Positions 9,301-34,326 of a stretch of DNA of 64,000 nt are shown in pieces (the stretch's first letter is position 1; every line of letters starts with the position of its first letter). The notes beneath the pieces are model-generated. The model did not search any database, was not told the origin of the DNA, and saw nothing but the letters and a program-made list of their open reading frames with translations. The position numbers were made by a program, and so were the translations under genes. The stretch is from contig NC_133221.1 in assembly GCF_040436345.1 (NCBI RefSeq), positions 21,090,665 to 21,154,664 on the forward strand. Direction: 5' to 3'. The stretch is from Pagrus major (Eukaryota; Chordata; Actinopteri; Spariformes; Sparidae).

Positions 9301-12300
9301 AACTAGAAACTCCACCAGTCCAGAAATAATCTGGTGATCTGTCAACACTATCAAATAGAATAGGTTGAACGGTCAATTCACCCAAATCACAAGTAAAACA
9401 ATCATATTTCCCCACTGACCCTGTGGTATTTAGACATGCAGCTGCTGTAGTTTGGGATTTATGTGCCCACGATTTGAAATATTCAGTTATGCAATGTCGA
9501 AGCGTTGGGAAATTTTATTTGAAAAATATCCACAAACGTTACAGTAAACAGTTGTCTTTGGAACTACTTTATAGCAAAGATATAGTCAGCTAGGGACTAG
9601 CAATAATTATCTTCTTGACTAGCCATAAAATTGTGAGGCATTCTCATCATAATTTTCATAAATAAATAAATTTTCACAAATGTCAACCTCATGGTGGTGT
9701 TCGAGAAAAAGTCAGGGGATCGCCGAAATCTGTGAAATACTCTAGGGACCATCAATATATGTACAAAATCCCATGGCGATCCATCCGATAGATATTGAGA
9801 TTTTTAAGTCGAAACAGACCAACAGACATTGCCCTCCATAAGGCTGGTCTATGCTCATGGGTGGAGCAAGTAAGAAATAGTGATTCTTCTGTGATTTAAG
9901 TGAAGTGACCCTTTAAGAAACGGTTGCTCTGTTTGTCTGCAGGTTGTCCAAAGCTGCAGACATGGACCACCACTGGGTGGCCAAGGCCTGGTTAAGTGAT
10001 GTGGGCTTGCCTCAGTACTCCCAGGCCTTTCACAACCACTTGGTAGACGGGCGCATGCTGAATTCACTGACACGTCGTGACCTTGAACGTCACCTCAACA
10101 TCACCAAGAAGTTCCACCAGGTCAGCTTGCTGCTGGGCATCGAACTGCTGCACTTACTCAGTTTCGACAAGGAGGTGAGTGAGAGTCCGCACAGGACAGC
10201 AGTGAATATACTTGTGTATCCTCTAGTGGGAGGTGAAAATAGAAGCTATCAGTCTAATAATAGGTTTGTTAAAATGGTTTCCAGGCACTGCAGGCTCGCC
10301 GGATACAGTGCGAGCACCAGAACGTGGATCCATTGGTATGGACCTCTCATCGGGTCATCAAATGGATCAAAGATATAGACATGAAGGTGGGAACAGAGAG
10401 AAAACACTCACTATGCTAACAATTTATTATCTTCTTAAAACTCACATCTTCTTGAAACAAAAACCGCAGCTGACAAATTGTCAAGCAGAAGTTGTCAGCA
10501 AACACTTTGATTAAATATTAATAACCAAGGCACACTGATGTATTGAGCATTATAAGAATGCTATCACGTGGCACTGTGGGTAATCGAGGCTCTTGTGTTT
10601 GCTCAGTGCTCCCTATCTCCACAGAGTGATACAAGGCCTTTGTTGTTGTATCTCTAAGCTGCTACTAGTTGATTACAAAGCCTTTCAGATTATGTTGCAA
10701 TATGAATATCCCCAGTCAACATTGTCTACTGTGTTGGCACAGGAGGAACACATGTTTCCATTATGAGGCATGACCCGATCAGGGTGAGGAGAGATAAGGC
10801 CGTCTGGACTGACATCCTGTTAATATCCTCAGGGAGCGTGAATACATGCTGACATTAATAAATCAATATGTTCTTTGTCTCGGAGCTAATTCAACATATT
10901 TTTTGGAGACTGTTGATATCAGAGACTCATTTAGTCAGTAATAGCCACAGTGTCACATCAGAGAATTTCAAAATTTCACTCTTTGACCTTCTTCCCACCC
11001 ACCTGTCCAGGAGTTTGCAGAAAATCTTCTAAACAGTGGAGTTCACGGTGCTGTCATGGTGCTTGACCCCTCGTTTAACACTGACTCCATGGCAACAGCG
11101 ATGGGGATCCCCAACGGCAAGCACATGGTTCGACGACACCTTGTTGAGGAGATGAAAGCCCTGATTGGCTCGGCCAGGTGAGAGGAGACGATCACATACA
11201 GAAACACAGGACAGACCCTACAGTATAAAGAGCAGATTCCATAAAGGGACAGTTCACCCAAAAATCAAAAATACATTTTTCCCTCTTACCTGTGATGCTG
11301 TTTATCCATTCAGATTGTTTTTGTGCGGGCTGCTTGGTTTTGGGGATATCGGCTGTAAAGATGTCTGCCCTTAACTCTTATTTAATGTAGATGGCACAGA
11401 TGTTTGGTGCCATCCAGTGTCAAAATTATACATTTGAAAAACTCAACAGCAAAGTCTCTTTTCAAAAAATCATGATGGTGGCTACTCAAGATTGTTTTGG
11501 AAAAGTTTTCTTTCTACCAACACGCCAACCTCCGCTTATATAGTAAATCTGGTTGGGCAGTGAGATAGCTAGCTTATTTCTCCAAAACCAAACAATCCAT
11601 TTTTTTATATTTTGGGGTGAACTGTCCCTTTAACTTCAGAGGGACAATCTCTAATAATATAGGCTGTATTTTTCTGTAAATGTTGTACGAAGGTATAATC
11701 TAGTGTCTTTGCAGCTGTCGTCAACTCTCTGCCCCTTCACATGTGCCCTGCAGGGCGGATACCAAGCAAGACAACGAGCATCTCGGCCAGGGAACACCAC
11801 CGACCCTCCTCCGCCAGAACTCTGTGGGCAGACCGCCCAGCTCTACGGGACGACACACTGATGACGAAGGCTCGCTGAGAAGGAGGGCTGTCAAGGTGGG
11901 GAAAAAGTTACTGTACTGGAAACTGACATGAGTCATTTCTTTGGACTTCAGAGTCAAAATCAGGCTCCGTCACTTTTACTCTGCAATAGGACTTTAACCA
12001 ATGATGATTTTCAGTATCAATTAATCTGCAGATTATTTTCCAGATTAAGTGATGTAACATTCGATCTAGAAAATTTGAAAAAGTCCAAAGTGATATCTTT
12101 AAATGTCTTGTTTTGTCAGTATAAAACCCAAAGATAGTCAGTTTAATGTGATATAGAACAGCAGAAAGCAGGAAATATCCATATTTGAGTGGCTGAAAAC
12201 AGAATATTCTACCATTTTTTACATTAAAATTTTTTTTAACGATAGATTGGTTATCAAATAGTTCTCAATTTCTGTCCATCGGCTAATCATTGTAGCTCTC

Positions 12301-13511: not shown

Positions 13512-14867
13512 GGTGTTGTGGTTTTGGGATTAGATTCCATTAAAACAAAAACAGAATGTACCAGGACAACCAGATAAACATGACAACAGCGATGATGAGG
13601 AGGAGTAATAGGATTGAATGGAGAGCTCCACTTCTCAACAACATCAACAGTAACAGTAAATAAAATTATTACCTGTAATGTTGAAGGGATTGCTCACAAT
13701 TACAAACTTGCAGAGAATTGTTGTCCAACTCTACGCAGCCCTTTAGCCTATTTTAACTCATTGTTTTGGTTTTACTGATGCATATTTACTGAACTGTTGT
13801 GTGCCTCAGCTCAGCCCTGTTTTCAACACCAAAACCTATTGTAGGCTATCTGTTCAGCACCAAACAACAAGGTTAGTACACCAGCCTGCAAACCAGCCTG
13901 CGAACTATTGTGAACTGTATGAATAAAGGATGACAACAGGGTGCGGGAATTAGATTGCAGAAATTCACTGAATTAACTGAAGCATTAAATGTTGGAGAAA
14001 CAATCTTTCTCACTGAGCTCATTTGCAAGGGGTAATGTGTCACTGCTCCCACTGTTATGCAAAAGGGAGTCTAAAACACTAAACACAGATTACATCTGTG
14101 TGCTAATACTGACTCTATACACTTGAGTGATTTCTCAACAGTATTTTGGTGAGTCACTCCAGTTCCTCCGATCTTTGCTCGGTGCTGGACATGTTACCTC
14201 AAGCGTCTGTTCAAACCTCTACGCAATACGACATGGTGCAACTTCCTCCTCTTACGCACTGTGACACGATAAGGATGACACAGCGCCAGATGAGACAGCT
14301 GATCTACCCTCTGGCTACTAGCAACGCTACCTGACTCGAATCCCGTCTGTTACAGTAATCCACCCACGGCTGGTTGAAATAAAGCAGGCGATTCATTGTG
14401 TGATGCCCCTTTGTACTCCTGGTTATCAGAGGTATAAGCTGGGAAGGTGTGTCAAGTGAACTGAACTACTCATTAAGGAAGCATTCAATGGAGAAATGTA
14501 ATTATAAGCTCACGTAGCAGCCATAAAACCAAAATCAATAATTACACTTCAGTGGATGTGACTTAGTTTGCAACAACAAAACCAAGACAGTGGTTATTCA
14601 GTTTGAGTTATGTAGGGAAACACACACTGCACAGAATATCCACCAAACAGGTTAATGCCACATATCATATCAAGTTAATATGCTACACTTAGAGGCTATA
14701 AGGCCACATACATCAAGTTTATCTAGTGCTACATTTTTGCTTTGTAGCTGCGGACACGTCACGTAATTTGATTACAGGCTGACAGTGATAGGAGATCAAG
14801 CCAGACTTCCAGATGTAATCAGGGCTTGTTAACTGTGCCTTTTGTCTATCTTTCCAAATGTATGTGT

Positions 14868-14925
<58 letters not shown>

Positions 14926-15080
14926 GGTGTTACAACAGAGGAACCAGACAAAAGCTAAGGAGGAAGAAAACCTCCCCAGCGCCCAGAACAGCAGGGCTGT
15001 CTCACTCAAACAAAACAATGCAGCGAGTGGCCAGGTTGGGACTGGTTTTGTCATTATTGTAAAACAGCCTAGTACTCGTT
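13512..15080. other. kazn–tmem51 intergenic spacer
   Basis: No gene is supported. The notable content is a long (GT)n microsatellite at 14872-14924. The 61-62 codon frames here are isolated and have no resemblance to a protein family. Confidence 0.6.
14872..14924. repeat. (GT)n microsatellite
   Basis: About 25 uninterrupted GT dinucleotides. The overlapping open frames on both strands are poly(CV) or poly(TH) artefacts. Confidence 0.97.
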
Positions 15081-16959
15081 CTAGCAGGCCGATACAGAGG
15101 AGAACAACAACTGGAGCCCATTCTTACTGTCTTGGGTTACTTCCAACACGTATACAACATGCATACAACAAGCACAAACACACAGACGTCTGTTTTCTGT
15201 CGTCTAAATGCATTATGGGAGACTATTTGTGTATTTGAATGCTGATAGGGTGAGTTCTCTGTCCAAAGGGCTTGAAAGGTGGTAAATTTACAAAGAGGAA
15301 GTAAAAATCCGATCACATTAAAGTGACACAAAACTGACTGACTTTTTTATAGTATACTGCATGGGGAAGTACTGAGTCAAGAGTGAGTCATTCATTCTGA
15401 TTAATTGATAACAGTTAACGGTGATCCGTGGGGAAAGACAGAGGGTCACGTCTTTTCTCATCGACATCAAAAACTGAGGCACAAAAAGTGAGATTTATGC
15501 AACTTGCACACAGAGTGAAAGTTACTGTTGACCACCCTGTGAAGCCTGTAAATAAATAGAAGGATCGGTCTGATCGTATATGTGTCACACACAATAAACA
15601 CATCTTACATATTTGAACTGTTCTTTCTATAGCTTAACCCACAATAAAAACACTCCTCTCATATTTACATTCAGTTCATGTCATACCTCTGTTCATAACC
15701 AAAAGGTTGCCCTGTATAGGTAAAGCCTCCCTAAAGATGATTGCTACAATCTTTGATGACTACATCATGTGTCACCATAGGAAAAGTTGGGATTGCAGAT
15801 ATTACAAAAAGTGTATGAAGCCCATGACCAACATGGTCATATGGGGATTTTCCACTGGTACTTTTGGCTGTGCCAGTCAAACTGTGCTGTGCTGGTTTGC
15901 TTTTCCATTAGTAGTTTCAGTAGTGCAGAGCTGTGACTGAGATGTACCATCTCCAGAGTGGTGCCAGAGCAACCCGCCCCACCTCCGGAGGGCTACAATG
16001 ACGTCTTGTGACAGCGGCAAACCCCTTTCTCGCCCTGACAGGCGCGTGTTGCGATACTCCACTCGTGTTTGTGCAGGGAGATGTCTGTGTGTTTTCAGTT
16101 CTCAGTCATTTTGCACCTTTTACAAGAATCTCTTTAGTTTCCCTCCTGTGTCCCCGTCCTTACTCTCAGTTACTGCTGGCAAAAAAAACAGTATTTCCTG
16201 ATTTTGCTGCTTCATAATAAAAGCTTTTAAATAACTCAATAAGGGGGGATTTTATTGTGAAGATTTTATTGGAAATGTCCATCACCAAATTAGCAGACCT
16301 TTCTCTGACCACCTCTAAAGACAAGTGTGTTGTCAGTTCGAAACGCACCTTCAAGCTGAGCCCCGACACATTCTGTCATTGTATTATAGATTATACATAG
16401 ATTTATTGTGCAAATAATGACTTCTGCCTCTTGCTTGGGACCCCAAAGAGCCCCTTCAAGGACCACACTTTGAGAACCACTGCTCTACGGTGCCATTCAG
16501 TGGAGAAAATGTGATAAACTGCACCCTAGGGTGCCCTTTATCTTTTTCGCCCCTGCCCTTTAGACAAACTGAGTCCGCCACTGAGCTTTACCCACAGTCT
16601 TTATGGTCACGAAACATTATAAATCTTGACGCGACTTAAGTGTATTTTCACACAGCAGAACAAGTAAAGGGGCAGCAAGAAGAAAGTTAAACTCATTGCA
16701 AATCATCTAGGGTGTCTGAAGACTGAAGAGAAATGGGTTGCCACTAAATGAGGTGAAATACCAAAAATATTTCCCCACATGCTCTCTCTCTCTCGCTCTC
16801 TCTCTGCAGCCCGAGCGAGAAAGGGTTAATGAAACTGGAAGTGAAGCACTGAGCCCACTCCCTCCTGCCTGCTGCCTCTCCCTCCCTCTCTTCTCCTGGG
16901 CCCATCCGTCTCAGAGGAAAGTCCCTGACCCTTAATCGATATTTGTCACCAAATTATGC

Positions 16960-17088
16960 CACATAAACTCCTGTCAGCGTCGGCGGGGGTTGTAAAATAA
17001 ACAGCACGCCTCGCAGCTTCGAGAGGAGGAAGAAGAAGAAGAAGAAGAAGAAGAGCGGGACTACTTGTTGTAGCAGAGCGATGCAGAG
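16960..17088 (+). promoter_or_regulatory. tmem51: tmem51 promoter-proximal region and 5' non-coding exon
   Basis: G/C-richer than its surroundings, with a (GAA)n stretch at 17028-17054. It ends in a strong donor, GATGCAGAG|GTGAGT, at 17089. The same segment including the donor is preserved in the relic copy (26930-27042), which supports it being a defined unit rather than random sequence. The transcription start cannot be placed. Splicing to the acceptor at 19373 would make a tiny upstream frame (see findings). Confidence 0.6.
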
Positions 17089-18185
17089 GTGAGTGGAGCG
17101 CCGACGTGCTGGCTCGCTCAAGTCTTCGCTTGTATCCTTGAATGTTACTTTAAAGTTACACGGTGGCTGAAGTTCGCGGCGCTTTCGGTCCTGTTTGCAC
17201 GACGTTTTGTAATCCAGCGGTGTGCGACTTTAAAACAAAAACCAAAAACCCGCCTGGTGTGAGAGTGAAGCGGACACTGCAGGGTGTTGGCGAAACAACA
17301 ATGGAAGTGTAGTTTTGCTTTGAGAGCTGAGTAAAAGCCTCTAATATCACTACTAATATTACCTTCCCACAGTGTGTTAGCTGTGACATTTGAGCCGAGC
17401 TGTCTGTATTTCCTGTAGAGAGTCTTTTTGTCAACAGCTGGCTGCAGAGGCACAACTAGTTCCTAACTCCACCTCACACACATGATCACACACACTGCAG
17501 TAATTGCATGCTGTACAGGGCTTTGTGGTATGAAGGTTTTTTTTTATGAGCAGGAATGTTAATGTCTTACTTTAGTTTAGAAACTGACCTGTGGTGAAAT
17601 AACCTATAACCTTTAGGGCTGGACTGCATAACAAAGCCCTCACATGTCCATAATATGTCAGCTCCTCACATAAAAATGTCCCTTTGCACCTCTGGATTGG
17701 CCAACTACAACAGGCTTATGAGTGACTTTATGTGTGCACAGGCTAACAGGCCAGTGTGTGTGTGTGTGTGTGTCCAGCTGTCATCATGATCACAATTCAG
17801 TCTCATGCCACACATTCCTCAGTGAGAGGTGGTATTCCTACATTGGAGCTGGGTCCTATCAACTTTAGCCTGCCTGTTCCTCTCACTCTCAGCAGGCCTG
17901 GGCGTGTTTGCAGACCGCACACTAATGATACTTTGTTGGTGTATGGAAGGAAAAAAAATCTGTGGTATTCATGAAGACGTTCTTGAGCCGTCACAGATGT
18001 TATTTATGGATAGTTTGTTGGACGTTTGATTGAGATTATTTATAGCTCCCAGCAGCACTCCTCTACTGTCTGATTTATCAAAGATAGAAAAGGGCTGGTC
18101 TTGTGATCAATCAGTTCTAAGTATGCAGTAGACATGCAGTTCATGCTCAGTGCATTTCAGAGAATGATTTTACTGTGTACGACAG

Positions 18186-18671
18186 TTAAAGGACACATAT
18201 TATGCTCAGTTTTATTTTAGGTTACTTCCAGAATAGGTTTACATGCTTTAATGCTCGAAAACACATCAGTTTTCTCATTCTGTCCATTGCTGCAGCTCTG
18301 TATTCACCCTCTGCCTGAAACACTCCTGTCTCTTTAAGAGACTCCCCCCTCCTGAATACCCAGTCTGCTCTTATTGGTCAGCTCACACACGCCTGTGCCA
18401 GCACAGCTAACAACAACAGAGCAGCTGTGCTAAATCAATTATTTCATGCCAAACTAGCTGCGAGGCATAAATTATGCAACTGTGTGACGTCACAAAGTCG
18501 CAGAAATAAAGGCGGGACTACTGATGAGGGGTTTCAGGAGCAGTGTTTTCTGTGGGAGAGAGGAGCTTCTGTCTGTTTTGAACTTTTGAAGAACTTTTAC
18601 ATGCACAAGAACCTTTATAGCACACAGAAGGAAAGGACGAAAAACGTAAAAGTATAATATGTCTCCTTTAA
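18186..18671. mobile_element. Non-autonomous DNA transposon with TTAA ends
   Basis: The left end TTAAAGGACACATATTATG and the right end (reverse complement TTAAAGGAGACATATTATA) are inverted repeats beginning in TTAA, as expected for a TTAA target site. The interior has TTATTGGTCAGCTCACACACG and GGCGGGACTACTGATGAGG. It lies in the first tmem51 intron. A shortened relative is in the third intron of the + strand elastase (37805-38185). No transposase. Confidence 0.75.
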
Positions 18672-19422
18672 TTGAATGCTAAACTAACAATGTTTCACTT
18701 AGTGCTATGTTTTTTAACACATCAATACAGAAGATAGGCGAAGAAGTAGGAAAGTAATCTAACAGACCTGTTCATTCTACAGCCAAGGTATTGTATTATT
18801 TCCTAAGGGCCTTGTTTTACAGTGGCCATAGCTGTGCTTATCTTCCCTCGTAATGTGTTGACATTAGGTAACTAGTGACTTTGCAAGGTGAGTCTGCTGT
18901 AACTTTTTACCATGCAACACACCCATTCAGAGAAGCCTCTCCTACCACTAAAAATGGGCATGGACTCTTATAAAAAACAAATCTCTGTGCAGTGGCGGTG
19001 ACATATTCAGCAGTAGCTTTATTTCTTAACAGGAGAACTGACAGGTGAGAGCCAGAGAAAGAAGGGATATTTGGTGTTTTCTTTTTTGCTTTGTTTTTTT
19101 TTTTTTCACCCCTTTCTTTTTAACAGAAAGGCCAGGAGTGACTATTTTGAACATTTTAAGTTCTCTGGATATACATTTTTTATTTTGGTTTGGTTCGGTT
19201 TGTTGGTTCTGAAGGTCTTGTGTGTAGGATTTAGGAGGATAATTGCAGGAATGAAATATGATTTTCGCAGTTATGATTTCAATAATGTTTAATCCCCTGA
19301 AACTGAAAACAGTTATTTTTTTTTTACCTTTCCCAGTTTGTGTCCAGCCTCACATGTCTCTCTCTCTCCACAGACTTTGACCTCACTGGAGCTGGTGGAA
19401 CTGACGTTTTTGGACTAACAAT

Positions 19423-21158
19423 ATGCATTCCAGTGTGGACAGACCAGCAAACAGAGGACCACCCCTTGGCAGCAACAACAATAACAACAACAGCAGTGAA
19501 AACAGCGGAAACTCAGGTTCCCAGTATGCACTATGTGCTCTGGGGGTTGGGCTCGTTGCCCTCGGCATTGTGATGATTGTGTGGAGCGTGGTACCTGCGG
19601 ACGCATCCGTGAATAGCAGCAGCAGTTCAGGAGGACACGGGGATACAACTAGCAGGAAAAATAAAGCGTCGTCCGTGGCGTTTGTGTTGGTGGGATCAGG
19701 TGTCGTCATGCTGCTGCTGTCCGTGTGTCTGGGAATGAGGAACAAACAGCGGGAGCAGATGAGGCTTCAGGAGGCCCAGAACAACGCAGGAGTGGCAGCT
19801 AGTGCGCATGATGAAAGAGAAACGTGAGTTCAATCACAGCTTTCTAGTTAAACAACACCTGGGAATAAATAACCAGAGGAGACCATCAGAATGATTACAT
19901 TTATTTAAGATGACTGCTTTTTGTTGTTGTTATGTGTGTAGGCAGAAAATTGATTTGACCATGCAAATTACCAATCTTGTGGATGTGATAAAAAATTGCT
20001 GATGGATTAGTTTATTTATTTATTTATTTATTTATTTTGATGAAAAATGACTAAAAAGATTTGAGCATTATGAAAATCAATGGTGAGATAGATAGTCCAT
20101 AAACTGTGTCTGACAGTCTTTTTGTCAAAGTTGCATCACTGATGATCAAATCTGAGATTTGTGATTTGACACTTGGTTGACAAACGTTTTAATTCAAGAA
20201 GCTAATAAATTATTCAGATGATTTTAGTAAGATTTTATTCAGACCATTTAGTAACTTCCATGCTGGCGGAAGTTTATTTTGATACACTGACATCATAGCT
20301 ACTCAGGTCCGTGCTGTTTCATGGCAGGCACTCGGGTCTAGATTGGTTCCCAATATAGCCTGCGCATAATTGACAGTAATCACAGAAAGTTATTTGTGGT
20401 AAAACATGAAATACACTCATATACGTTTAACATTCATATACGTTTAACAACATTCTATGTCGTTTTGAGGAAGAAACTTTAATCAGAAGAGAAGGATCTT
20501 AATTGACTGATTTTTATATGGACAACACAATTACTGTTTTACTGCCACCTCTCTAGCTTCAAACAGTGGGGACCTTATTTTCCTCTGAGAACAGCTTGTT
20601 TATTCAGTTTTTACTATTACTTCATTAATATTGTAAATATAAAATTTCTGAAGCAAAGTGCTTAAGTAAAAATACTTTGTTACTTTCCATCACTGAGTGT
20701 GCACATAATGCTTCATCTGTCATTCATATCTGTTATCTGTTTCTGTGAATGTCTGCAGTGCTGAGGAACAAGCCCAGCGTTACGCTGTACCCACGTATGA
20801 GGAGGCAGTAGGCAGTGGCCAGTACCCTGTCCGTCAGAGCAACCTGCGCCCAAGCACCTCCCAGCTACCTTCCTACGATGACCTGGTCCAAGTCGATGGC
20901 GTACAGTATGAATTTGAGGGGTCAGAGGTCACGACTCCTGGATCGCAGCTGGCGCCAGCTTCCACCGCTGCTGCTGCTTCCACATCAAATCGAAGACCTG
21001 GGAAAACCAGCCGCAAGCTCCTCCCCATCAAGATCCGCAGGATTAAATCAGAAAAGCTGCACATGAAAAACTTGGATAACTCTCAGCCAGCAGCTGGAAT
21101 CAGTATAGAACCACTTACCCCACCACCGCAATATGAGGATAAAGTGCCACCGATTTAA
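19423..21158 (+). CDS. tmem51: Transmembrane protein 51
   Basis: Two coding exons, 19423-19823 and 20759-21158 (TAA 21156-21158), with GT-AG ends and phase 2. They code for 266 residues against about 253 in human. The exon starts at the acceptor at 19372-19373 and the first ATG (19423) is used. After a Ser/Asn-rich N-terminus the protein has membrane segments at about residues 35-57 (YALCALGVGLVALGIVMIVW) and 84-105 (SVAFVLVGSGVVMLLLSVCL) joined by a short Ser-rich loop. A long cytoplasmic tail holds VPTYEEA, LPSYDDL and a PPQY motif at 256-259, a classic WW-domain ligand. This architecture and tail match vertebrate TMEM51. Molecular function is not well established. Which fish paralogue it is cannot be decided. 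Confidence 0.93.
20011..20036. repeat. (TTTA)n microsatellite
   Basis: Six to seven TTTA units in the intron between the two tmem51 coding exons. Confidence 0.9.
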
Positions 21159-22330
21159 AATCCAGCTGATCGTGTTTGAGACATTCTACTGAAACTCGTG
21201 AAATAGTCTCTGGCGGGTCACACATCACCTTTTGTGGACCCGGATCTACCTTGTTAAACCAAGACTTGAAGGTGGCTGTTTCTCCAGAACATTCTCAGTG
21301 GCACTTTGTTTGAAAATAACAGTATCTGTTTAAATTCATCATTCATGCAACATCGCTCCAAAGCACTGAACAGAGAAACCTTTATGTTTTTTCTAATTTT
21401 GGATCTCACTGGATCTCTGAAACAGAATGAAAGTGACGGACATAGTTGCTGGATCCTTCCTTACTGTGACAGATTCTGTCGCACTGTGACACTTTGGGTT
21501 AAAAGCACACGCCAAATACAGTTTTCCTTCTTGTCAAAGTATTTTTCTGTTTATGCATTAACTTCATGTAACCCACTACCCAGTGGACTGACTGTACACG
21601 TGAGCTGACAGTGGAAAAGATCACAGGACATCAACGAGGATTTGTGTTGAGGGCGCTTGTGCTGTGAAGTAGAGGCTGTTTAGACAGTTCTTTTTTATCT
21701 GGGAGGCTCTGGATTGTGACTGCCAGTGATTTACCAAATGTAGGCTCCATTTTGAGTGACTGAGCATTGTGTAAACTCAACTGGACTGACCTGATGTGGT
21801 TTTCTACACAGAAACTCTCCTTCATTGTCAACAAAATTGTCTCTCCTGGTCCTCAAGAGCTTTGCAGCAAATTGAAGACAATGTTTATTGGTGTTTGAAA
21901 GAGTCTACTGTTTCTGCACAGAGCCCAGCCCCCTCCCCACTTCTATGTTAGCTTCTATTTAGCTTTTGGTTAAAATTGTTTATCTGTCTCCTTGAAAAGC
22001 TAAAACATAGGTTTACGTTACATATTGTAAGATGAGGTCTTTGGACCAAACAATTTAAGAATCTCTTATTTTTAACCAAGATAAAACACAGCTTTGTTAG
22101 CATTTATCAGCTACAGCTCCCATGACTCTCGGCCATAGGCACTCTGCCAAAAGCTAATAGGGATTGTATTGTTTAATGCTAACAAAATATCACTTGTTTT
22201 GTCTTAGTTATAATATCAAGACACTTGAATGTTATGGTTGAGTACAGCAGTATATTTATTTAACAGAAGAGAGAATCCTGGTTTTATGCTTCACATAACA
22301 ATGAGAAATAAAAGAAACTCGGAAATATTT
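21159..22330 (+). other. tmem51: tmem51 3'UTR
   Basis: Untranslated sequence after the stop codon. The first AATAAA is at 22307-22312 and another is at 22467-22472, so two 3' ends are possible. Part of it (21257-21445) is repeated at 27380-27565 in the relic copy. Confidence 0.65.
22307..22312 (+). terminator. tmem51: Candidate poly(A) signal of tmem51
   Basis: AATAAA about 1.15 kb after the stop codon. A second AATAAA at 22467-22472 is an alternative. Confidence 0.5.
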
Positions 22331-22479
22331 ATCTTCAACTGAGTAAACAAGCTGTTCTCAGAAGATAATATGGTCCTCAGAACAGTTTGTTGCTTAGTCA
22401 GTGTATTATTCAGTCATGAAAATGAAGTAGTTTGTTTATTTCGTTTGTTTAGATCTTTCTCTTCTAAATAAAATGTATT

Positions 22480-24380
22480 CCCCAAAACTACATAGTGCAC
22501 CTTTAAAGCTGGTGGAACACGAGCTGGCTTGAAAATGGAGTGTGACTTCAGCTGTTCATGATGTGAAGGACGGTGGTATTTCTTTACTGAACAGGTCCAA
22601 CATTGGTAAACTGCAGCTTTTAGAAAATCAGCCCTATATGCCATCAGCTTATCATTTTGTCACGGCTAACAAGTTAGCAAACAGCTGCCTAGCTACAACC
22701 AGCAGTTACAGCATAAAATCAGCATGACATTGGTGTCTTGTTTCGTGCTAACCGATAAATGTAGGTCCAAATTTCATTTGTTTTTAGCTCTGCTTTGGAT
22801 TCTGCAACCTTCTGAGAAAATAGCTGGTTCTTTAGCCTGCTAAATGCTTCATTCTCCTCACTATTTAGCTTGCTAAATGCTAAATGGTCCTTACAATGAA
22901 CTTGTTTACTTTGGCTAGGGAGGTAGCATGTAGGCTGAAATGTATATTTAAACCAGTGGTCATCATGAAGGTCATCATTAGGTTACTTTTTATGAGCAAC
23001 TTATTTCATGTTGCCTTTAAGGAGTGCTAATGCTAACTGACTGCAGCTCTGAGTTTGCCCTCCAGCTGCACACACTGAAGTTAAGTGTGTTTGTGTTCAG
23101 AACAACACTGCTGCTCCTCATGAAACATTTCAAAAGACGTACGACTGAACCTGAGCTCTAATGTGTCCCCTCGGTGCAGTGTCGCCATTCCTCTGTGTGA
23201 GAGCGTGGATAGCTGGAAGTGTCTGCCCTGTAGCCATGGTGAGTGCTGTGGAGCTGTGAAGGCAGCAGTGTAGTCTCCGCTTCTCTCTGGGCTTGTTTTT
23301 GTTCTTGCTCACGATGACCAACAGAAAGACTCTTTGACTGTGCAGCTGCGCCATAATAACCCCAACTGTTGCTCACTCGCTTACTCATCACCATTCCTCC
23401 AACCACAGCTCGTCTTGCAACCCAATTCTCACACTGACGTATGCAGACGGCTCTAAGGTCTTTTTAGGGGGATTTCTGATACTTTCTGATACTTTTTGAT
23501 ACTACTACTCTGATACTTTTTTTTATCAATACCTGTCAACAAACTTTTTGCAGAAGACAAGTGGAAGATTTTCTCTCACTTTTCATAACTGACTTCATCA
23601 CCCAGTTCTACACTGTATACTTGAAGTAAAACTCAGTGTAGTTAATGCAACTCAATCATTGTCAGCTGGTTTTGGTGTATATTGAAAGGTTTTCTGTCAG
23701 GCCTGAAGACACAAAGTCATTGAGTGACTTCAGGTTTGTGATTGGTTCACAACAGCTGCAGAATGCCAGCGTGTCTCTGACTCATTTTTGAAGTTGAAAC
23801 TTTCCACAAAATGTATTAAATCTTTATTTTTTGTCATGTTCAGTGCTGCAGACAGAGTCATTGTACCTCACTTACAATGAACCAGTGACTACATGATTGA
23901 TTTCATTATTATGTAGTCAAAACGTTTTACTTTGATGAAACTGAGTATTTTGATGCAGCAGTCACTTTCTGTCTGAATTGGATGAGTGCCAGAAACATGC
24001 TGTTTGTTTTCAGTTTCATTTATCATTGCCTTTTTTATGACTTAAATCTATATTTCTTTTATATGTACTGTGAAAACATGCTTTTCTATGATAACTCTTA
24101 TTTTCTATTTCTATTTTTCTGAAGAGTGAAAAAGTATATCTCATGAATATTTAATGAGAAATAAAAGGAAGTATTTGTTAATTAACCCAGTGTTTAAGAA
24201 GTGCTTTTTTGTGTGATGACAGTACAGCTGTATGTTGACTCAAAAGTCATAATCCATCCAGTTTTCTAACTTTATTACCGTTTATCATTTCTTAGTTAAT
24301 ATGTAGCTACAGTATTAAAAGCTGAAGGTGATTGATACTATCTAGTTGATAAGGGTTTTTGTTTGTAAGTGTGAAGGACA
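22480..24380. other. Spacer between tmem51 and elastase fragment
   Basis: No gene seen. It has TTAGC-rich low-complexity stretches (about 22660-22920) of the kind common in fish introns. The frame at 23130-23406 on the minus strand has no family resemblance and no splice context. Confidence 0.5.
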
Positions 24381-24391
24381 TTGACAGTACT

Positions 24392-24980
24392 TTAACAGCC
24401 TCTCCAGTAGTTGTTCATAACCTGCAAAGGAAACAACAGAGGACACAGTTATAACACACTTCCTGTTTTTGGAAGCCAGGGTTTTGGTTTCTTGAGGTAA
24501 CATTGTTTTTGCTGGCATGTTAACTGCAAAATGAAAATGTTCCTCACTGTGTTCGTCCAGTCGGTGTATGAGCTGACTTGTGTAAAGACAGTGGGCTTCT
24601 GGAGGACGTTGAAGCCGTGACCAGAACCGAAGCTCACCACATCGTGGACGTCCCTGGAGCCATCAGGGTTCTGACAATTCAGGGGGCCACCAGAGTCTCC
24701 CTGTAGGTAAGCACACACACTATTGGCTAGCTGCTTATGTACAGACAGTATGGAGGTATGACTACCAGTGATCACTTAGTCATGCTGAATTTTCCTTTTA
24801 CACCATTTGAAAGTGAATCTATTGCTTGTATCATCCCTGAGTCTTTGATAAACGGAAATGATACAGCCAGACGACCACCAACTGTGGGAAAGAAGTAACT
24901 CGGTTAAGAAACAAGATTTTACTTTGAGGGAGGTTCACTTGGGGAGACAGGCGAGGTGCTGGATGGAGATAATGTTTCAG
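24392..24980 (-). pseudogene. Elastase 3'-end fragment (orphan exons 7 and 8)
   Basis: Exon 7 relic (24548-24700) translates as a serine-protease end with [14 protein letters not shown], keeping both splice sites. Relative to the intact copy at 27707-27859 it has Trp to Arg, Gly to Asp, Met to Thr, and a Cys to Phe change in the GSGHGFNV segment that removes the conserved 191-220 disulfide. The exon 8 relic (24392-24421) begins VMNNY, but the stop is TGG, so the frame reads four residues further to TAA at 24392-24394. Exon 6 is almost gone: near 24858 the sequence jumps to its first bases (CCACCAACTGTGGGAAAG). Exons 1-5 are absent. It is the truncated member of the tandem duplication and cannot code a protease. 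Confidence 0.9.
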
Positions 24981-25582
24981 TTACAGATAGGGTTCAGGTT
25001 AGATGGTTAGAGATTGGCATTTAATACCAAACCTAATGACTACATGGGATGTCTCTTGAGCCATTTAACTGCAAGAGAGCTACATTGTTTAAACCAGATT
25101 ATTTTTTTATTATTATTATTATTTTTTTTTTTTACTGTTTTTCAACCCAAACCCTATTGAAATGTGATATCCTATCATTTATAGCTATGTGTAGCACAAC
25201 TTCACAGACCGCTTTAGTACTGGCACAGTCTCCCTTATGTTGCAACTTCTAAATGAGCTTAAACACAGTTCAATTGTGCAAAAGTGTGTCCCTGAAATTC
25301 CTGTAAAAGACAGGAAGCTCACAGGAAAGTCACATGTCTCATATCAATAAAAGTGTTGCAATACATGCTTTCTATCAGATTCTGCTACATCTGTGCCAAA
25401 GGCAGTAAGCTGAGCAAAAAAAGTTATTCTCAAAGTATTTTTTGTTATATTTGTTGAAATGATCTCTTACCGTCCCGCAGCAATCAGTGAATCAAATGTT
25501 ATGACAAAAACGGGGAAAAAATCCAGAATCTGTGCCTGTAGGCTTGTGATGATCGCATTGAAATGATTGGACAGCCAACTTG

Positions 25583-25617
25583 CATGCCTGCCTACATGCC
25601 TGCCTGCCTGCCTGCCC
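25583..25617. repeat. (CCTG)n short tandem repeat
   Basis: GCATGCCTGCCTACATGCC followed by several CCTG units. Imperfect tetranucleotide repeat just before the duplication junction. Confidence 0.85.
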
Positions 25618-26154
25618 GCGCTCACTCTACCCGAGCACTCATTGCACATGACCATCTTGAGTCTTCCACAAGATTAGGCGGCTACATTGCTAAAGCTATT
25701 AGCCCGCTAGGCGTCGCACGAGAATGGCAGAGAAAGCGCAGCCGAGATACTAACATCCTCCTTCCAGCAGGCCAATACACAGGAGGACACTGTCTCTGGT
25801 TACTTCTAACAAGCAGACGACATGTGAACAAGCACTGTGTTGTCTCAATGCATTATGGAAGATCATCTGTGTAAGTGCGAGTGCCCACAGGGTGAGCGTA
25901 CTGCCGGGAAATACTGAGTACAGAGTGAGTCATCGGGCTTATTCGTTGATAACAGTTGTGATTTGTGGTGTAAGGCAGAGGGTCACGTATATTCTCATGG
26001 ACATCAAGAACTTTGTCAACGTTTTGTAGTGAAATGTAACTCCGAGGAGATTTAAGAAAATCTGTTCAACTGTTGTGAAGACAAATAATAGCAAGCAGAG
26101 TTAAATGTACTGTTTGTTTTCTTCTCAAGCTCTCTTTGAACGCTTTCAGTGACC

Positions 26155-26480
26155 CCGGCTGGTTCCCATGCTGGCCATTTTCCTCTGACGTCATGCTCAG
26201 GCAGGGAAGCTTGAATGCTGGCATAATGTCATGCTGCTGTGTTGCAGCTCGTATACATGTAAGGAATCAAGTTGTTATCATTTCATCACTTATTGGTTGA
26301 GTAGCAACTGAAAACGTATTGGACAATGAAAATCTGGAAGGACGTTGGGGCCATATTTTGAGGAAAGACTCCATTTGAAAACCCATTAGCTGACGTTAGC
26401 ATTCAACCACTCCATAGCTTGCATTACCTTCCAGGCTTAAAGAAATGTGTCCAACATGTGTTGATATTTCAGAACTAACA
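26155..26480. mobile_element. Second copy of the foldback family
   Basis: Shares GGCCATTTTCCTCTGACGTCATGCTCAGG-like, GTTGCAG and GCCATATTTTGAGG order with the arms at 3324-3573. It is absent from the corresponding part of the first duplication unit, so it probably inserted after the duplication or was lost from the other unit. Confidence 0.55.
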
Positions 26481-27497
26481 CACATTAGAAAGAAAAAAAA
26501 TTGTATTGCTGATATATGAGTTGCTTCTACACTGACCTGATGAGCAACCAAACGTGATAAAATACCCTCTAGGGTGCCCTTTAGTGGCAAAAACAAAATA
26601 AGGTGTCCCTTTTGCCCAGACTGAGTCTGCCACTGAGCGTTTGCCACAGGTTTTATGGTCATCAGACATTATAAATCTTTACTGTTAAAGCGCATTTTCC
26701 AGGCATACACAGCAGATTAAATAGCTTGAAGAGACCAGAAAAAGAAAAACTCACTGCAAAACTGGACTATCACCATACAAACAGAGGTTACATACCAAAG
26801 TTATTTCCCCACATACTTTCTCTCCATCTAACAACAAGGCCGAGAGAGAAAGTGCTTCCTCTGGGCTCATCCGTCTCAGAGGACAATTCCCGCCCCTTAC
26901 TGTAAATAATATTTTTCACCAAATTATGCCACATAAACTGCTGTCAGCGTCGCTAGGGCTAGAAAATAAGCTGAACACCTCCCAGCTTTGAGAGGAAGAA
27001 GAAAAAGAAGAAGAGCGAGGCTACTTGTTGTGAACGATGCAGAGGTGAGTGTAGCAGTGATGTGCTGGTTCACTGAAGTGGTCATTTGTATCACTGAATG
27101 TTACTGAAAGTTACACGATGGCTATTTGACGTCACCAAATTCATCTATTCCTAATAAAACATTTATTTTATTAATTATAATTATAGATTCTCTTCTCATC
27201 ATTTCCTTTTTATCTCATACTCTAGACTTTTTATCTCATAAATATGACTTACCATGGGATTTTTTTTTTTTTTATCAAGGCTACGTTTTCATCAATATGC
27301 ATGGGCTTGGCTTCCATATATTGTTTCCATATATATCTTACTTTACTATAAAAACCTGCCCTGTGGCGAACTACAGGACAACCCTAAACCAAGACTTGAA
27401 TGTGGCTCTTTGTTATAAAATACAGTGACTTTTCAAATTCACCATTGATGCCACATCACTCCAAATCACTGAAGAGAGAAACCTTTGTTTTTTTTGT

Positions 27498-27503
27498 TTT
27501 ATT
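27498..27503 (-). terminator. Candidate poly(A) signal of elastase 1
   Basis: AATAAA on the minus strand (TTTATT on plus), 80 nt beyond the stop codon. It falls inside the tmem51 3'UTR relic on the opposite strand. Confidence 0.55.
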
Positions 27504-27582
27504 TTGGATCTCACTGGATCTCTGAAACAGATACAGATGGATAGTGACAGACACAGACATAGAAAGCACTTTAACAGCCTCT

Positions 27583-30500
27583 TCAGTAGTTGGTCATAAC
27601 CTACAGAGAAAACAACAGAAGACACAGATATAACTGGTATGACTGGTTTCTTGAGGTAACAATGTTTTTGCTGGCATGTTAATCACAAAATGAAAATGTT
27701 CCTCACTGTGTTCATCCAGTCGGTGTATGAGCTGACTTGTGTAAAGACAGTGGGCTTCTGGAGGACGTTGCAACCCTGACCAGAACCGAAGCTCACCACA
27801 CCGTGGACGTCCCAGGAGCCATCAGGGTTCTGACAATTCAGGGGGCCACCAGAGTCTCCCTGTAGGTAAGCACACACACTATTGGCTAGCTGCTAATGTA
27901 CAGACAGTAAGGAGGTATGACTACCAGTGATCACTTAGTCATGCTAAATTTTCCTTTTACACCATTTGAAAGTGAATCTCTATTCCTTGTATCGTCCCTG
28001 AGTCTTTTACACTATGATGGATGGAAATGTTACAGATAACATTACTAATCGCTGTAATTGTTTTTAATTACAGCTGCACCATAAGATGACCCTTCCTTGT
28101 ATTAACTCACATTACACCCGGCAGTGACGCCGTCACCTCCGGCACAGACCATCTTGTCCGTTGCCAGGACGCTCCACCAGTCAGGCTGTGAGCAGATATC
28201 GTGGCCGACCACTGGCAGGAGAGCCTGCTGCAGGACGTCAGCCAGAGGACCACCAGCTGTGGGGAAGGTATAACAGTGGTAAGAAACAAGATTTTGCTTT
28301 GAGGGAGGTTCACTTGAGGGACAGGCGAGGTGCTGGATGAAGATAATGTTTGCTTAAGCCCCATTGAGGACACTGAGGTCATGTCCTAAGTATTTTTCCA
28401 AGGTCTTTTTAAAATTTTTAAATATATACTATTTTTTTCCCGAAAACTTTAAATTAAAGTTTGTCGTGTGTTTTGAACAACCACCAGTTACACCACAGGA
28501 ACAGAAGCAGCAACTGCGCTCGAGATTTGAGCAAACACAGACTATCAACTAATATTAATTTAAAATGTGACACATCCAAACGCAGAATCAATTAGGAGTT
28601 TCTGCTCCAGTATCTGTGGCTGTAGGCCTGTAACAACGCTGTCCAGTCATCTCATTATATATCATAATTGAACATAGGGGGCTATATTGCTAAAGCCATT
28701 GGCCAACTAGCATCACAAGAATCGCAGACAGAGTGCAGCCAAAATATTAAAATGCTAGCTGGACACGGTGAGTACTCACCCCTGAGCCAAAGAACGAGTA
28801 GCTGCAGCAGTGACAGACTGTCTTTCAGCATTTAACCCAGAAGCACAAAGCACACAGCCCCTGAACTACAGATCGAGTGAGCCGCTGCATCAGCTACAGA
28901 CTTGTTCAGTGTCTAACCCAGTAATGTTAGTGCAAAGCACACACCCATGGCAGTGAGCATGAACTGCTGGACCGATTAGCCTTTTTGGACTGAGGTTGTG
29001 ACGGCTATTTTGTTATATTGTTTATCTGATTGTGGGATTTAACAGTTGAGAGAGTTGTTTATTCATATATTTATAAGACTAAAACATCTCCGAGAGCTTG
29101 CTGAATGTAGCGACCTAGCCACTGAGACATATCTCCCAGTTTGCCGGCGAGACCTACAGCACAGTCTGTAGTCAGGCAGCACTTGTTCATGTGTTTTGGA
29201 GGAGTGGAGGCCTGAAGGGAGGCGCTGAGATACTTTTGGTTGAATACTTTCAAAATCTAGCTTGCTCTTGCTGGTTTCTCCAATGTTGCCAACTCCAGCT
29301 TTAATGCGCAAATTAAAGGAGCTGGCAGGATTACACTTCACTGTGATTGTACCTTATAGTATGATAACATGACAACTAAACTTGATTGACTCATTAATAA
29401 TTAAAAGCATGGTTTGTGTTTCTTCTGTACTGATAGAACACATTAAGCCTAAGTGCAGTGAGAAACAAAACTCTACTCCAGATATGGCAAGGTCTACTGC
29501 TTATTTAACAGGATGATGGTTACATGCCACATTTTTCTAACCTATATGGTTGTAAAATATTTGCAGCTTTGACCTCAATGTTTGCCCTGAATATGACTGA
29601 CAGGTGCAAGAGAAACTGCCATCACGCACACTAAATCCACGTTGAAAAATGTGTAATGCACATTGACGATGATTCATTCTGCTAAGGTGTATTCACTCAC
29701 TGGAGAGTCGACCCCAGCCGGTGACATAGCAGGGAGCCCTGTGGGGCAGGACGACGCCTCCGTCTGGGAGGCAGGCGGGCATGATTGTGTCCGAGAAGGT
29801 GACGGAGGAAGACAGTTTGATCAGGGCAATGTCGTTACTGCAAAGCAATACAACCACATTTAGGAAGTAGAATAAAAACATGGTTTATGCTGTATTAATG
29901 TTTTGCTACATCAACATGAGGTTATACTGAGCTGTGTGGGGCGGCTGTAGCTGTTACCGGCTGAGCAGGATGTTGTAGTCCTCATGAGAGATGATTGCAG
30001 CTGCCCCCAGGGCGATCGAGCCCTCCTCACTCGTCTTCAGGCTGTGTTTACCCAGCTCCACTCTGTAGTTGTAGCGGTCACTGTGGGGTGGCAGATGACA
30101 TGGTGTTAGGGGGATTGGACAGTAGCACTGACTTTTCTGCCTGTGTGTACAACACTGTTATTAAGGTGATGGTGGCTTGCAGATGCTTAGCAGTCCCGTA
30201 AAGGTAATGCATGGTTGTTTAGGTGAGCAAACACTGCGCTGGCTGGTTTCTCTACATGCCACTCTTCTCTTCTTCTGGTCAGACATGGTGGCCATTGCTG
30301 CTGATTCTAGAAGAACCAGCCTGTTCTTTTGTTCATTCTCAAAATGAACATCTCTTGTGAGGTGCCTCCTCAGGCACAGAAAAAGCTAAATGCATCATCA
30401 TTTCCTGTTGGACGGAGCAGTATTTCTTGCCAGAGACAGTTTGTTTGGATAGTGCATAGTAAATATGAGTGCTCTCGTGAACTTGAATCACTACTGAGTC

Positions 30501-31856
30501 TAAATGAAAAGCAAAAGCAAAAAGCAAGAGCAAGAGCAAAAGCAAAAGCAAAAGCAAAAGCAAAATTAGTAATCAGGGTTCATGCAGTTGCTGGAAATCG
30601 GATTTAAAAGTGCTTAAATTTTGGATAAAGATGCTTGAAATTCCAACTGCATTACAGTACCTTTATAATAGATTGTTTTATATTTCCCCAGCCAGTTTAT
30701 ATAGGACTCCAGATCTATTTACAGTCAGGTGACACATTTTGATTTTTTGAAAAGATAAAGAACCCTGTGTAATTGTGATTATATTGGCAGCCTGAGTTAA
30801 ACATACTTGATGCAGTGTGCAGCAGTGAGGACCCATTCAGAAGAGATGAGGGTGCCTCCACAGACGTGCTGCCAGCGCCCACTGCTGTCTGACTGGAGCG
30901 AGATCTGAGCAGAGCAAAGCAGTAGACAAGAGCGCATTACTACACAATGAAACGCCCTACAAATCCATTTCATCTCTCATCCCTCTATATACCTGCTCCT
31001 GGATCAGAATCAGAAGTTATCACAAGATTCAGAGTGTAAAGATAGTTGACACTTTTTCTCTCTGTAGTGGTAAAATGAAAATGTAGTGTTCATGCAGTTC
31101 TGTGGTTGTCATAGTGAATATATTTTTTGCACATTAAGAGCACACCTCACCTGCCAGGGCCAGCTGTGAGGCCTGACGTCCTCTCCTGCCACCACCCTGC
31201 TCAGCACAGGAGGGAAGGTGGGAAGGCCACATCCACAGGCTGGGACAAAATGATAATGTATGTTGTAAATAGAGATGTTCCAATACCATTTGCTCCCTAC
31301 AGATTCCAATACTTGGATGTGACAGGACTGCTATCATTGTTATATGGCCTGGCTCAGGTGAAACCCTTTGTTAAACATGAACAAATACGTACAGAGAATG
31401 AATGCAATTTCAATTCATATCTAAACCTTTCCATCTGCTTTTTTACAGCCAATAAGGCTATCCTCTGCAGCAGGCGCAGGAGAAGTGACCACTGAGCAGA
31501 ACTGAGCAGAAGTTGGGAGCAATTTGACAATGATTATGCATTAAACATCAACGTTACTAGGTAACTAAAGTAACTATTACTCCACTGAGTAATGTTTGAG
31601 TAGAATACTTTGTACTTTTACTTAAGTATTATTTTAATACCAGTAGTTTTACTATTTTTAATACTCTCTCCACCACTGATTATTGTTGCCTTTCAAATAA
31701 AATGTGATTATTAGCACTCTAATCTCTCTGAGAGACTAATTTGGAACTATTTATCTGGATTGCATTACAGCAAATACATTTTAAGTTACTCGATGAGAAG
31801 AGGGAAACTGTCTTACCGCTAGCTACCAGAAAAGTCAGAACCAGCAGGCTCCTCAT
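27583..31856 (-). CDS. ela2l: Chymotrypsin-like elastase, CELA2 type (copy 1)
   Basis: Secreted pancreatic serine-protease zymogen. Minus-strand exons in order: 31817-31856, 31151-31239, 30807-30904, 29958-30080, 29701-29837, 28111-28256, 27707-27859, 27583-27600; all GT-AG with matching phases; 267 residues. Residues 1 to about 16 are a signal peptide ([13 protein letters not shown]...). The propeptide starts [12 protein letters not shown] and activation would cut R28|VVAG. Catalytic residues are His73 (TAAHC), Asp119 (NDIAL) and Ser214 (GDSGGP). Counting from the serine, pocket positions 189/190 are Ala/Gly, 216 Gly and 226 Thr. Length and exon pattern match CELA2A (269 aa in human). Its 3' end was duplicated to 24392-24980. 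The fish paralogue name is tentative. Confidence 0.95.
28600..29340. repeat. Repeat-rich part of elastase 1 intron 5
   Basis: 28600-28759 matches 25440-25768. Next come diverged internal repeats (AGCACAAAGCACACA and TGCAAAGCACACACC; GAGTAGCTGCAGCAG and GAGCCGCTGCATCAG), then a fish-repeat-like block at 29080-29310 (CAATGTTGCCAACTCCAGC). No coding exon. Confidence 0.5.
30505..30565. repeat. (AAAGCA)n hexanucleotide repeat
   Basis: About ten AAAGCA/AGAGCA units in elastase 1 intron 3. They create spurious poly-Leu and poly-(Lys-Ala) open frames. Confidence 0.93.
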
Positions 31857-32296: not shown

Positions 32297-34285
32297 TCAG
32301 TAGGCCACCATTTTCTGTAGAGGAGAAGATAAGACATGTTAGATTAAGTGCATCATGTTTTAAGCAATAAGACATTGATCATTTGTTTTAATCAGTTCAT
32401 ATTCTTTCTATTGCTATCATTGAAATAACGCAAATAAAAATTTGACAGTTGTAGTTTTTCAGACTTCAATCTCTGAAGTGTTTCACTGAGAGGTTCAGGG
32501 GCTTACAGAGTTGATCCAGTCGACGTAGGAGCTGACTTTGGTGAAGACGGTGGGCTTCTGCTTCAAATTGCATTTGAGCCCGGAGCCAAAGCTAACGATG
32601 CCGTGAACCTCCCAGGAACCAGCAGCGTTCTTGCAGTTCAAAGGGCCGCCAGAGTCTCCCTGATTCATGTGACAGAAAACATGTGATCAGTGTGCAAATT
32701 CAACAACTAACAAGTACTTCTTGTCCTTTAAAGACACTCAGTTAGTGTTCTCAGTGTTTACTTCTAACAGTCCTCTAAAATACTAAATGTCACTCACAAA
32801 AAAAGGCATTTTAGGGGAGATAGTTTCTGACTTTTTTGGGAAGTAGCGTGTAGGAACATAAGAAGAATTTCAGGACTAAAATATACAAGAACAGAGCACT
32901 ATCGATGACTCTGTAGATTATTTCTCCATTAGCCGATTAATCGTTTGGTCTATAATATTTTGGGAAAAGTGAAGAAAAATGCCAATAACAATTCCTCAAA
33001 GCTGAAGTTGACAGATTCAAATTGCTTGTTTTGTCTGAACAAGAGTTTAAAACTGAAAGATATTTAATTGAAATTGTAGACGACTATAAATCAGCCAATA
33101 TTCACATTTGAGAAGCTGGAACCAGTGAATATTCAGCAGTTTTTCTTTAAAACTGATTTAGATAATTTGTCAGTTATCAAAATAATATTTTTCTGGTGAT
33201 TAACTTATAATTCTACTTTGTTACATCTATTACATTTTATGGATATGTTGTTTTATAAGTGTGCATGGAAGTGAAAAATGTGCCATTTTGGGTACAGAAA
33301 TAAACATCTTCTGTATAATATATGACAGATGTACCGGTTAAGGTAGCACAAGTGTCACTTGTTGTCAGAAAGCATTGTTGCTACTGTATGATGTCTCAAT
33401 ATGTGTCATTAATTATTTCAGACTCACATTACAACCGGACACGACTCCATCTCCACCTGCGCAGACCATGGTGTCCTTCACCTGGAAACCCCACCAGCCA
33501 GATTTGGTGCAGGTGGCGTGGTCCACCACGGGCAGGAGAGCCTGCTGCAGGATGTCAGCAATGGGACCTCCAGCTGTGAGAAGGCGAGATGAAAACAAGC
33601 TCAAGTTCAGTTCAGGTTAAAGACAAGTGAGAGGTAATTATATATATTTATATAAAAATATTTATACTGTGATGGTTACAATGTTAAAGTATCTGATGTT
33701 AAATTTACTAAAGTATCAAAAGTACAAGTAAAAGTAAAAGTCTACGTTGTCCTTTATTCAATCATTTAGTCTATAATAGAAATTGATCACCGGTTAACCT
33801 TCCTTTTCCAGGGTAACACATGCCTGGCGGCAGAAAAAATTGTGTACTGATAGGGAGTTTTTGTAGGGAGCCAATGTAAACACTGATGGTTTCATTATTC
33901 TATATACATTACATTCTGCAATAAACATTTACTTCATAATAATACATCGAAGCAAAGAACTTGTCTATTGTGGTCAAATACTACAATAAGACTGTGTACC
34001 AACCCAAATACTAAGAAACTGTTAATTCAAATTGCAGTAAAGAGCTCAGCTCAGCTACAATTGTCAAAATTTCTTACTGTTGTAACACACATAGTAAACC
34101 GGTTTTGTCTCAAGCTGAGGGAGGAGACTGTGCACTCACTGTACAGGCGGCCCCATCCAGTGACGTAGCAGGGGAAGTCATGGGTGAGAGTTGCGCCGGC
34201 AGGAGGGACACAGGCGGCCATTATGGTGTCAGAGAAGGTGACGGGGGACTCCAGCTTGATCAGGGCAATGTCATTACTGCAGAGG

Positions 34286-34326
<41 letters not shown>

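Follow-up and report, generated by a model that had tools for sequence, protein, structure and literature searches.

Tandem arrays of serine protease genes undergo birth-and-death evolution, and in the stretch examined here, 64,000 nucleotides of Pagrus major contig NC_133221.1 (hereafter the window, numbered from its first letter), three related proteases and a relic likewise lie side by side. Unlike the relics of such arrays, this one, a 3' stub of an elastase/chymotrypsin-C-like gene (hereafter the elastase gene), would have arisen together with a piece of an unrelated neighbor, tmem51. We consider it probable that one direct tandem duplication, reaching from upstream of tmem51 to a repeat in intron 5 of the elastase gene, gave rise to both the stub and a spare tmem51, with a deletion and gene conversion following later. 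A duplication of this sort is of a common kind and part of ordinary genome evolution, and no general question depends on the locus. It offers a worked case in which one non-homologous duplication across two convergent genes would leave a reciprocal pair of relics.

The locus resembles partial tandem duplications made by non-homologous repair in its direct repeat, its intronic breakpoint, the little or no overlap at the joint, and the combination of a 3' stub with a spare neighboring gene. In excerpts of a study of copy number variants (CNVs) in Drosophila, 41% of breakpoints carry microhomology of at least 2 bp and 35% are blunt, and these are the main CNV classes (PMC4056370). Those excerpts describe small variants, with median sizes of tens of bp, and count 2 tandem duplications among 50 insertions, whereas the present locus is old, about 18% diverged and partly blurred at its joint. 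For rearrangements mediated by transposable elements, excerpts of a second study give a median microhomology of 1 bp in the non-homologous class (PMC9675761); that class also has its breakpoint within a repeat, but here one side only is repeat. Among human pancreatic protease genes, a third study, again as excerpted, describes CELA3A and CELA3B as having undergone conversion between their exons 7, and it cites further cases in which PRSS1 was converted with either PRSS2 or a pseudogene (PMC5187948). The tract at the present locus likewise includes the last exon (7) of an elastase-type gene; unlike in those excerpts, conversion is deduced from divergence in one genome and would have taken place between a gene and its own truncated duplicate. 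Our literature search found no printed account of this tmem51/elastase (KAZN, TMEM51, CTRC) locus, which is not proof of absence.

We compared the window with itself and then searched the blocks one by one (BLAST E-values of 3e-5 to 3e-149 in the self-comparison) against the fish's own genome (786 Mb, 25 contigs), using a search that skips very common words and scores the best candidates only. A comparison of 24377-28760 with a phage collection gave no match, which is uninformative for an animal locus. We call the left boundary (15075) L, the middle junction (25758) J and the right boundary in intron 5 (28756) R. The two units and their shared blocks, given as unit 1/unit 2, are as follows.

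15075..25759, unstranded: unit 1, intact tmem51 and elastase 3' stub (collinear blocks; left edge from the start of homology)
25758..28756, unstranded: unit 2, tmem51 remnant and 3' part of the intact elastase gene (right edge probably inside a dispersed repeat)
15126-15254/25789-25896 and 15355-15475/25899-26012, same orientation: upstream blocks (self-comparison)
16507-17168/26550-27123, same orientation: tmem51 upstream and first-exon block (self-comparison)
21255-21445/27385-27556, same orientation: tmem51 3' block (self-comparison, extended later)
24377-24866/27556-28035 and 24864-24977/28239-28351, same orientation: elastase blocks (self-comparison)
25758..26012, plus strand: second tmem51 upstream copy, beginning at the junction (match 15075-15096/25758-25779; score 56.7, with 16.1 the highest among 500 dinucleotide shuffles)

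The units are adjacent segments whose homologous blocks keep the same order and orientation, as in a direct tandem duplication. An earlier note on this DNA had expected a single diagonal offset by about 10.7 kb. None was seen. Since unit 2 is far shorter than unit 1, the offset steps down from 10.7 to 10.0, 6.1 and 3.2 kb. A stretch of 2.9 kb (21446-24376) is present in unit 1 and absent from unit 2, having been either lost there or gained in unit 1.

The gene-specific blocks are not independent high-copy repeats in the genome search. The upstream query 14930-15480, within which block 15126-15254 lies, and the 3' query 21200-21446 were reported elsewhere in the genome at unit 2 only, and so was the first-exon part of tmem51 (16890-17168) among the best 40 of 59 candidates. 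For the elastase block, the search listed unit 2 and, in two other proteases of the same array, exon 7, with no further places. There were two exceptions, the outermost block on the right and a stretch of about 54 bp (16530-16583) inside block 16507-16889 that is the edge of a dispersed repeat. Part of this edge and its right flank are common to both units (16556-16630/26607-26682), and the insertion is therefore older than the duplication. Of the seven collinear blocks on which the earlier note built, the gene-specific ones thus hold, as does its expectation that they would not be scattered over the genome at high copy number, while the outermost block is a high-copy dispersed repeat.

The two copies of tmem51 differ in what they retain.

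16890..17168, plus strand: presumed non-coding first exon of tmem51 in unit 1, its donor and the beginning of intron 1 (exon status suggested by a GTGAGT donor)
19423..19823, plus strand: tmem51 coding exon, first half (PF15345, E=5e-92)
20759..21158, plus strand: tmem51 coding exon, second half with stop (open frame, PF15345)
21255..21445, plus strand: tmem51 3' untranslated region (UTR)/downstream block (common with 27385-27556)
26550..27123, plus strand: upstream region, first exon and splice donor of the second tmem51 copy (self-comparison, genome search)
27333..27373, plus strand: probable intron-1 remnant at the edge of a deletion of about 3.65 kb (shuffles)
27385..27556, plus strand: 3' UTR/downstream block of the second tmem51 copy, which directly adjoins the 3' flank of the elastase gene (self-comparison)

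The intact gene has an open frame of 266 amino acids, and the PF15345 profile matches over its full length (1-237 of 237) at residues 30-260. Unit 2 keeps the first exon and its donor (26855-27123). Beyond these, a weak 41-bp match to intron 1 (27333-27373/17562-17601) fits the block order, its score being reached by 1 of 1000 shuffles against the first 632 nucleotides of the intron, and unit 2 picks up again, 11 bases past this remnant, at the position corresponding to 21255. Taken together these features are moderate evidence that one deletion of about 3.65 kb removed both coding exons from the spare copy. One other tmem51 locus was found in the genome search, on another contig (G000:C6:16438880-16441156), with 50-52% protein identity; the coding part of the second copy is therefore not seen elsewhere. 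In that search the match to the first coding exon lists one TGA, where it overruns the splice donor. The other locus is perhaps the partner of the present gene from a whole-genome duplication.

The elastase gene lies on the opposite strand and is intact in one of its two versions.

27683..31856, minus strand: intact elastase/chymotrypsin-C-like gene with 7 exons (standard splice sites; PF00089, E=1e-65)
31817-31856, 31151-31239, 30807-30904, 29958-30080, 29701-29837, 28111-28256 and 27683-27859, minus strand: its exons (open frame)
24524..24700, minus strand: exon 7 relic of the stub, with the stop codon and a conserved Cys lost (codon comparison)
24864..24977, minus strand: first 18 bases of exon 6 and a piece of intron 5 in the stub, with most of exon 6 missing (self-comparison, gene model)
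24485..24848, minus strand: low-divergence tract (15/364 sites), read as a gene-conversion tract (chain divergence, permutation)

The open frame of the intact gene encodes 269 amino acids with a trypsin domain. Its best match among solved structures (PDB) is chymotrypsinogen C, followed by chymotrypsin C and elastases; CTRC and elastase-2 are both candidate names. NCBIfam gave one match (E=1e-4), whose 20.7 bits are far under the family's cut-off of 999. The stub lacks an equivalent of 28036-28238, and with it most of exon 6.

Divergence between stub and intact gene is uneven. The tract differs from the intact gene at 4.1% of its sites, compared with 17.9% in the rest of the aligned chain, and none of 2000 permutations gave as strong a contrast. 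It spans exon 7 together with flanking sequence to its left and right. In the intron piece 24704-24800, 3 of 97 sites differ, compared with 27 of 197 across the stub's outer portions (p=0.004), namely 14/87 (16.1%) in 24377-24476 and 13/110 (11.8%) in 24867-24977. Exon 7 and the adjoining intron are thus about four times less diverged, and a subsequent conversion, or some event like it, is therefore needed. A bounded stretch of low divergence that includes presumably neutral sites and lies within older homology is what conversion leaves, and we infer from the divergence that conversion between the stub and the intact gene is the natural reading.

The same figures bear on whether two separate duplications occurred, with the tmem51 region copied first and the 3' end of the elastase gene afterwards. 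Such a sequence of events would account for the elastase block being 7.0% diverged when the tmem51 blocks are 13.6-20.8% diverged. However, the low divergence is limited to the inside of the elastase block, whose outer parts come near the tmem51 blocks. In addition, the order is collinear and the elastase and tmem51 3' blocks of unit 2 abut at 27556 with zero bases between them. We regard two duplications as very unlikely.

Could the tract instead have been kept by selection, with exon 7 of the stub still in use? The relic does retain its splice acceptor and its frame up to the position of the stop. Yet 5 of the 6 codon changes before the stop are non-synonymous, one of them removing a Cys common to the three elastase-type genes, and the stop itself is lost. 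Moreover, the neighboring intron is as little diverged as the exon, whereas matches to the protease paralogues stop where the exon does or continue into the intron for about 19 bases. We rejected selection as the cause of the tract and hold continued use of the exon to be extremely unlikely. At 4 of the 5 sites that change an amino acid both paralogues agree with the intact gene, and the change therefore lies in the stub there; at the fifth, the stub carries the base of one paralogue. These changes fit decay of the stub after the putative exchange.

The outer limits of the duplication were sought in a dispersed repeat and in the start of homology upstream of tmem51.

25421..25759, unstranded: dispersed repeat cut mid-element at the junction (genome copies, alignments)
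28606..29298, unstranded: repeat copy of the same family in elastase intron 5, continuing past the probable breakpoint at 28755-28756 (genome copies)

The outermost block (25675-25759/28675-28756) consists of this repeat, and the query 25559-25743 has at least 39 further places in the genome (best 40 of 212 candidates scored). Copies at 29 of the 39 places were compared; 28 could be aligned around the junction, the remaining one scoring too low. The extent of the element was judged from the 9 copies with long flanks. The repeat of unit 1 stops at the junction, and the part it shares continues directly in 8 of these 9 copies and as a separate piece in the ninth. The copy in intron 5 likewise continues beyond the point where the unit-1 copy stops. 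On the other side, homology upstream of tmem51 starts at 15075/25758; to the left of this point none is left (score 7.7 against a mean of 9.0 in 200 shuffles). These results support the earlier placement of the breakpoints upstream of tmem51 and in elastase intron 5 as the best reading. The exact right breakpoint would lie inside the intron-5 repeat; we infer this from position, since the two units have ceased to resemble each other between the elastase blocks and the repeat.

The joint itself was read by eye from the 28-copy alignments. The repeat, '...ACTAACAT(G/C)CT', meets the upstream sequence 'CTCGTTCTAGCAGG' (now CTCCTTCCAGCAGG), with CT common to both. In the simplest reading the overlap is therefore the 2 bp CT, which needs no insertion or deletion. 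The earlier note had taken the word CTAGC or CCAGC at the three boundaries as a hint of end joining with short homology. That proposal came out weaker than the CT overlap, because the match between L and J extends to the left of CTAGC (CTCGTTC/CTCCTTC, 6/7) and the repeat copies fix the other side. With a CTAGC joint, about 6-7 additional bases have to be assumed and the match to its left becomes a coincidence; it is probably the CTAGC that is the chance match. A repeat family used as a yardstick can in this way locate an old breakpoint and weaken an apparent microhomology.

Copies of the same repeat family at the junction and at the right boundary raise the question of unequal crossing over between two dispersed-repeat copies. 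No copy was seen at the left boundary, either in the genome search with 14930-15480, which was reported at unit 2 only, or on comparing 13800-15400 with the nine long copies, where the one match (14889-14939) is TG-rich and lies outside their common part. Unequal crossing over between repeats is therefore unlikely; the junction repeat is also cut mid-element and is not a whole hybrid, which makes this origin, in our judgment, highly improbable. Non-allelic homologous recombination between the same repeat at both outer ends was rejected for lack of the left-hand copy. End joining or replication template switching would be the repair class that fits.

Under the single duplication that we favor, a segment now 10.7 kb long in unit 1 would have been copied directly, from upstream of tmem51 (now 15075) to the intron-5 repeat (now 28755-28756), at a place where the elastase-type gene neighbored tmem51 in opposite orientation. 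Its ends would have been joined by non-homologous repair with an overlap of about 2 bp. Unit 1 would have kept a working tmem51 and an elastase stub of exons 6-7, and unit 2 a working elastase gene and a whole spare tmem51. From the spare copy, both coding exons and the greater part of intron 1 would then have disappeared, probably through the single deletion suggested above, while dispersed repeats would have entered unit 2 and the stub would have lost most of its exon 6. Later still, conversion over about 360 bp may have homogenized exon 7 of the stub and adjoining sequence with the intact gene. The earlier note had held that the duplication must yield exactly what is seen and that one event explains both relics. 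The elastase stub would indeed be immediate; the duplication would give a complete second tmem51, with loss of the coding exons coming later. Duplication likewise stands as the main cause, and the divergences call for an added conversion step.

Several observations weigh against parts of this history. Windows outside the tract vary from 11.8% to 24.9% in divergence, so that sites are not fully exchangeable as the permutation assumes. The score of the intron-1 remnant was reached by 35 of 1000 shuffles when the whole missing stretch was used, and 209 bases of unit 2 (27124-27332) are without a clear counterpart in intron 1. At the right edge, the repeat copies at J and R have closer relatives than each other: 8 of the 29 copies score closer to J, and 9 of the 29 closer to R, than the J and R copies score to one another, in a set chosen by a search with the J copy, which favors J. 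In the stretch from 24977/28351 to the repeat, little more than a 26-bp repeat piece is common to J and R; their non-repeat parts score 20.2, compared with 13.4 on average and 22.0 at most in shuffles. Given the repeat status of the outermost block and the missing nearest-relative signal, its similarity is therefore no evidence of the duplication, and we rejected it as an independent line; shared descent at this edge is argued from the position of the cut in the repeat and not from similarity.

The same points allow for a right breakpoint outside the repeat, with the repeat inserted separately in unit 1 and the true edge, beyond 28351 or further, since lost. Both the relationships of the J and R copies and the dissimilarity of the sequence leading up to them speak for this. 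Against it, the cut end of an independent insertion would have to coincide with the start of the tmem51-upstream homology. We think such a breakpoint unlikely, and retain the duplication ending in the intron-5 repeat.

Divergence of about 18% is too high for an assembly duplication of two haplotypes, which we rejected. This raw difference corresponds to a Jukes-Cantor distance of about 0.2 (hand calculation). With neutral rates of a few per billion years per site, the duplication would be tens of millions of years old, a figure that depends on this calibration and is not a result. The divergence of a single block cannot date such a duplication, because conversion resets part of it. We also considered whether the truncated pseudogene kept exchanging with its working parent, maybe shaping the parent's last exon, and whether the first exon and donor of the spare tmem51 could in addition function, next to the elastase gene, as an alternative promoter or a non-coding transcript. 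This combination appears quite unlikely.

Other repeats occur in and around the units. The stretch 26163-26486 is a repeat that fills the gap between two duplication blocks in unit 2 and is also found at 3332-3579 and, inverted, at 4285-4609. Two other dispersed-repeat stretches lie in unit-2 elastase intron 5 (28361-28620); the facing unit-1 stretch is without them, and for the sequence of unit 1 between the elastase blocks and the repeat the genome search reported only one match elsewhere, of 44 bp. A repeat pair that is 71% identical joins 18230-18693, in tmem51 intron 1, to 37750-38225, in the third protease gene.

The array contains two more elastase/chymotrypsin-like genes, at about 32480-35640 (minus strand) and 37270-39420 (plus strand), the second of which is oppositely oriented. 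On the other side of tmem51, NCBIfam assigned no family to an open frame at 9917-10375, within which a SAM domain (PF00536, E=1e-13) lies at 9968-10150 (plus strand). In human, KAZN, TMEM51, CTRC and CELA2 presumably lie together, and by this gene order the SAM-domain exon probably belongs to kazrin. If so, the neighborhood would be old and conserved.

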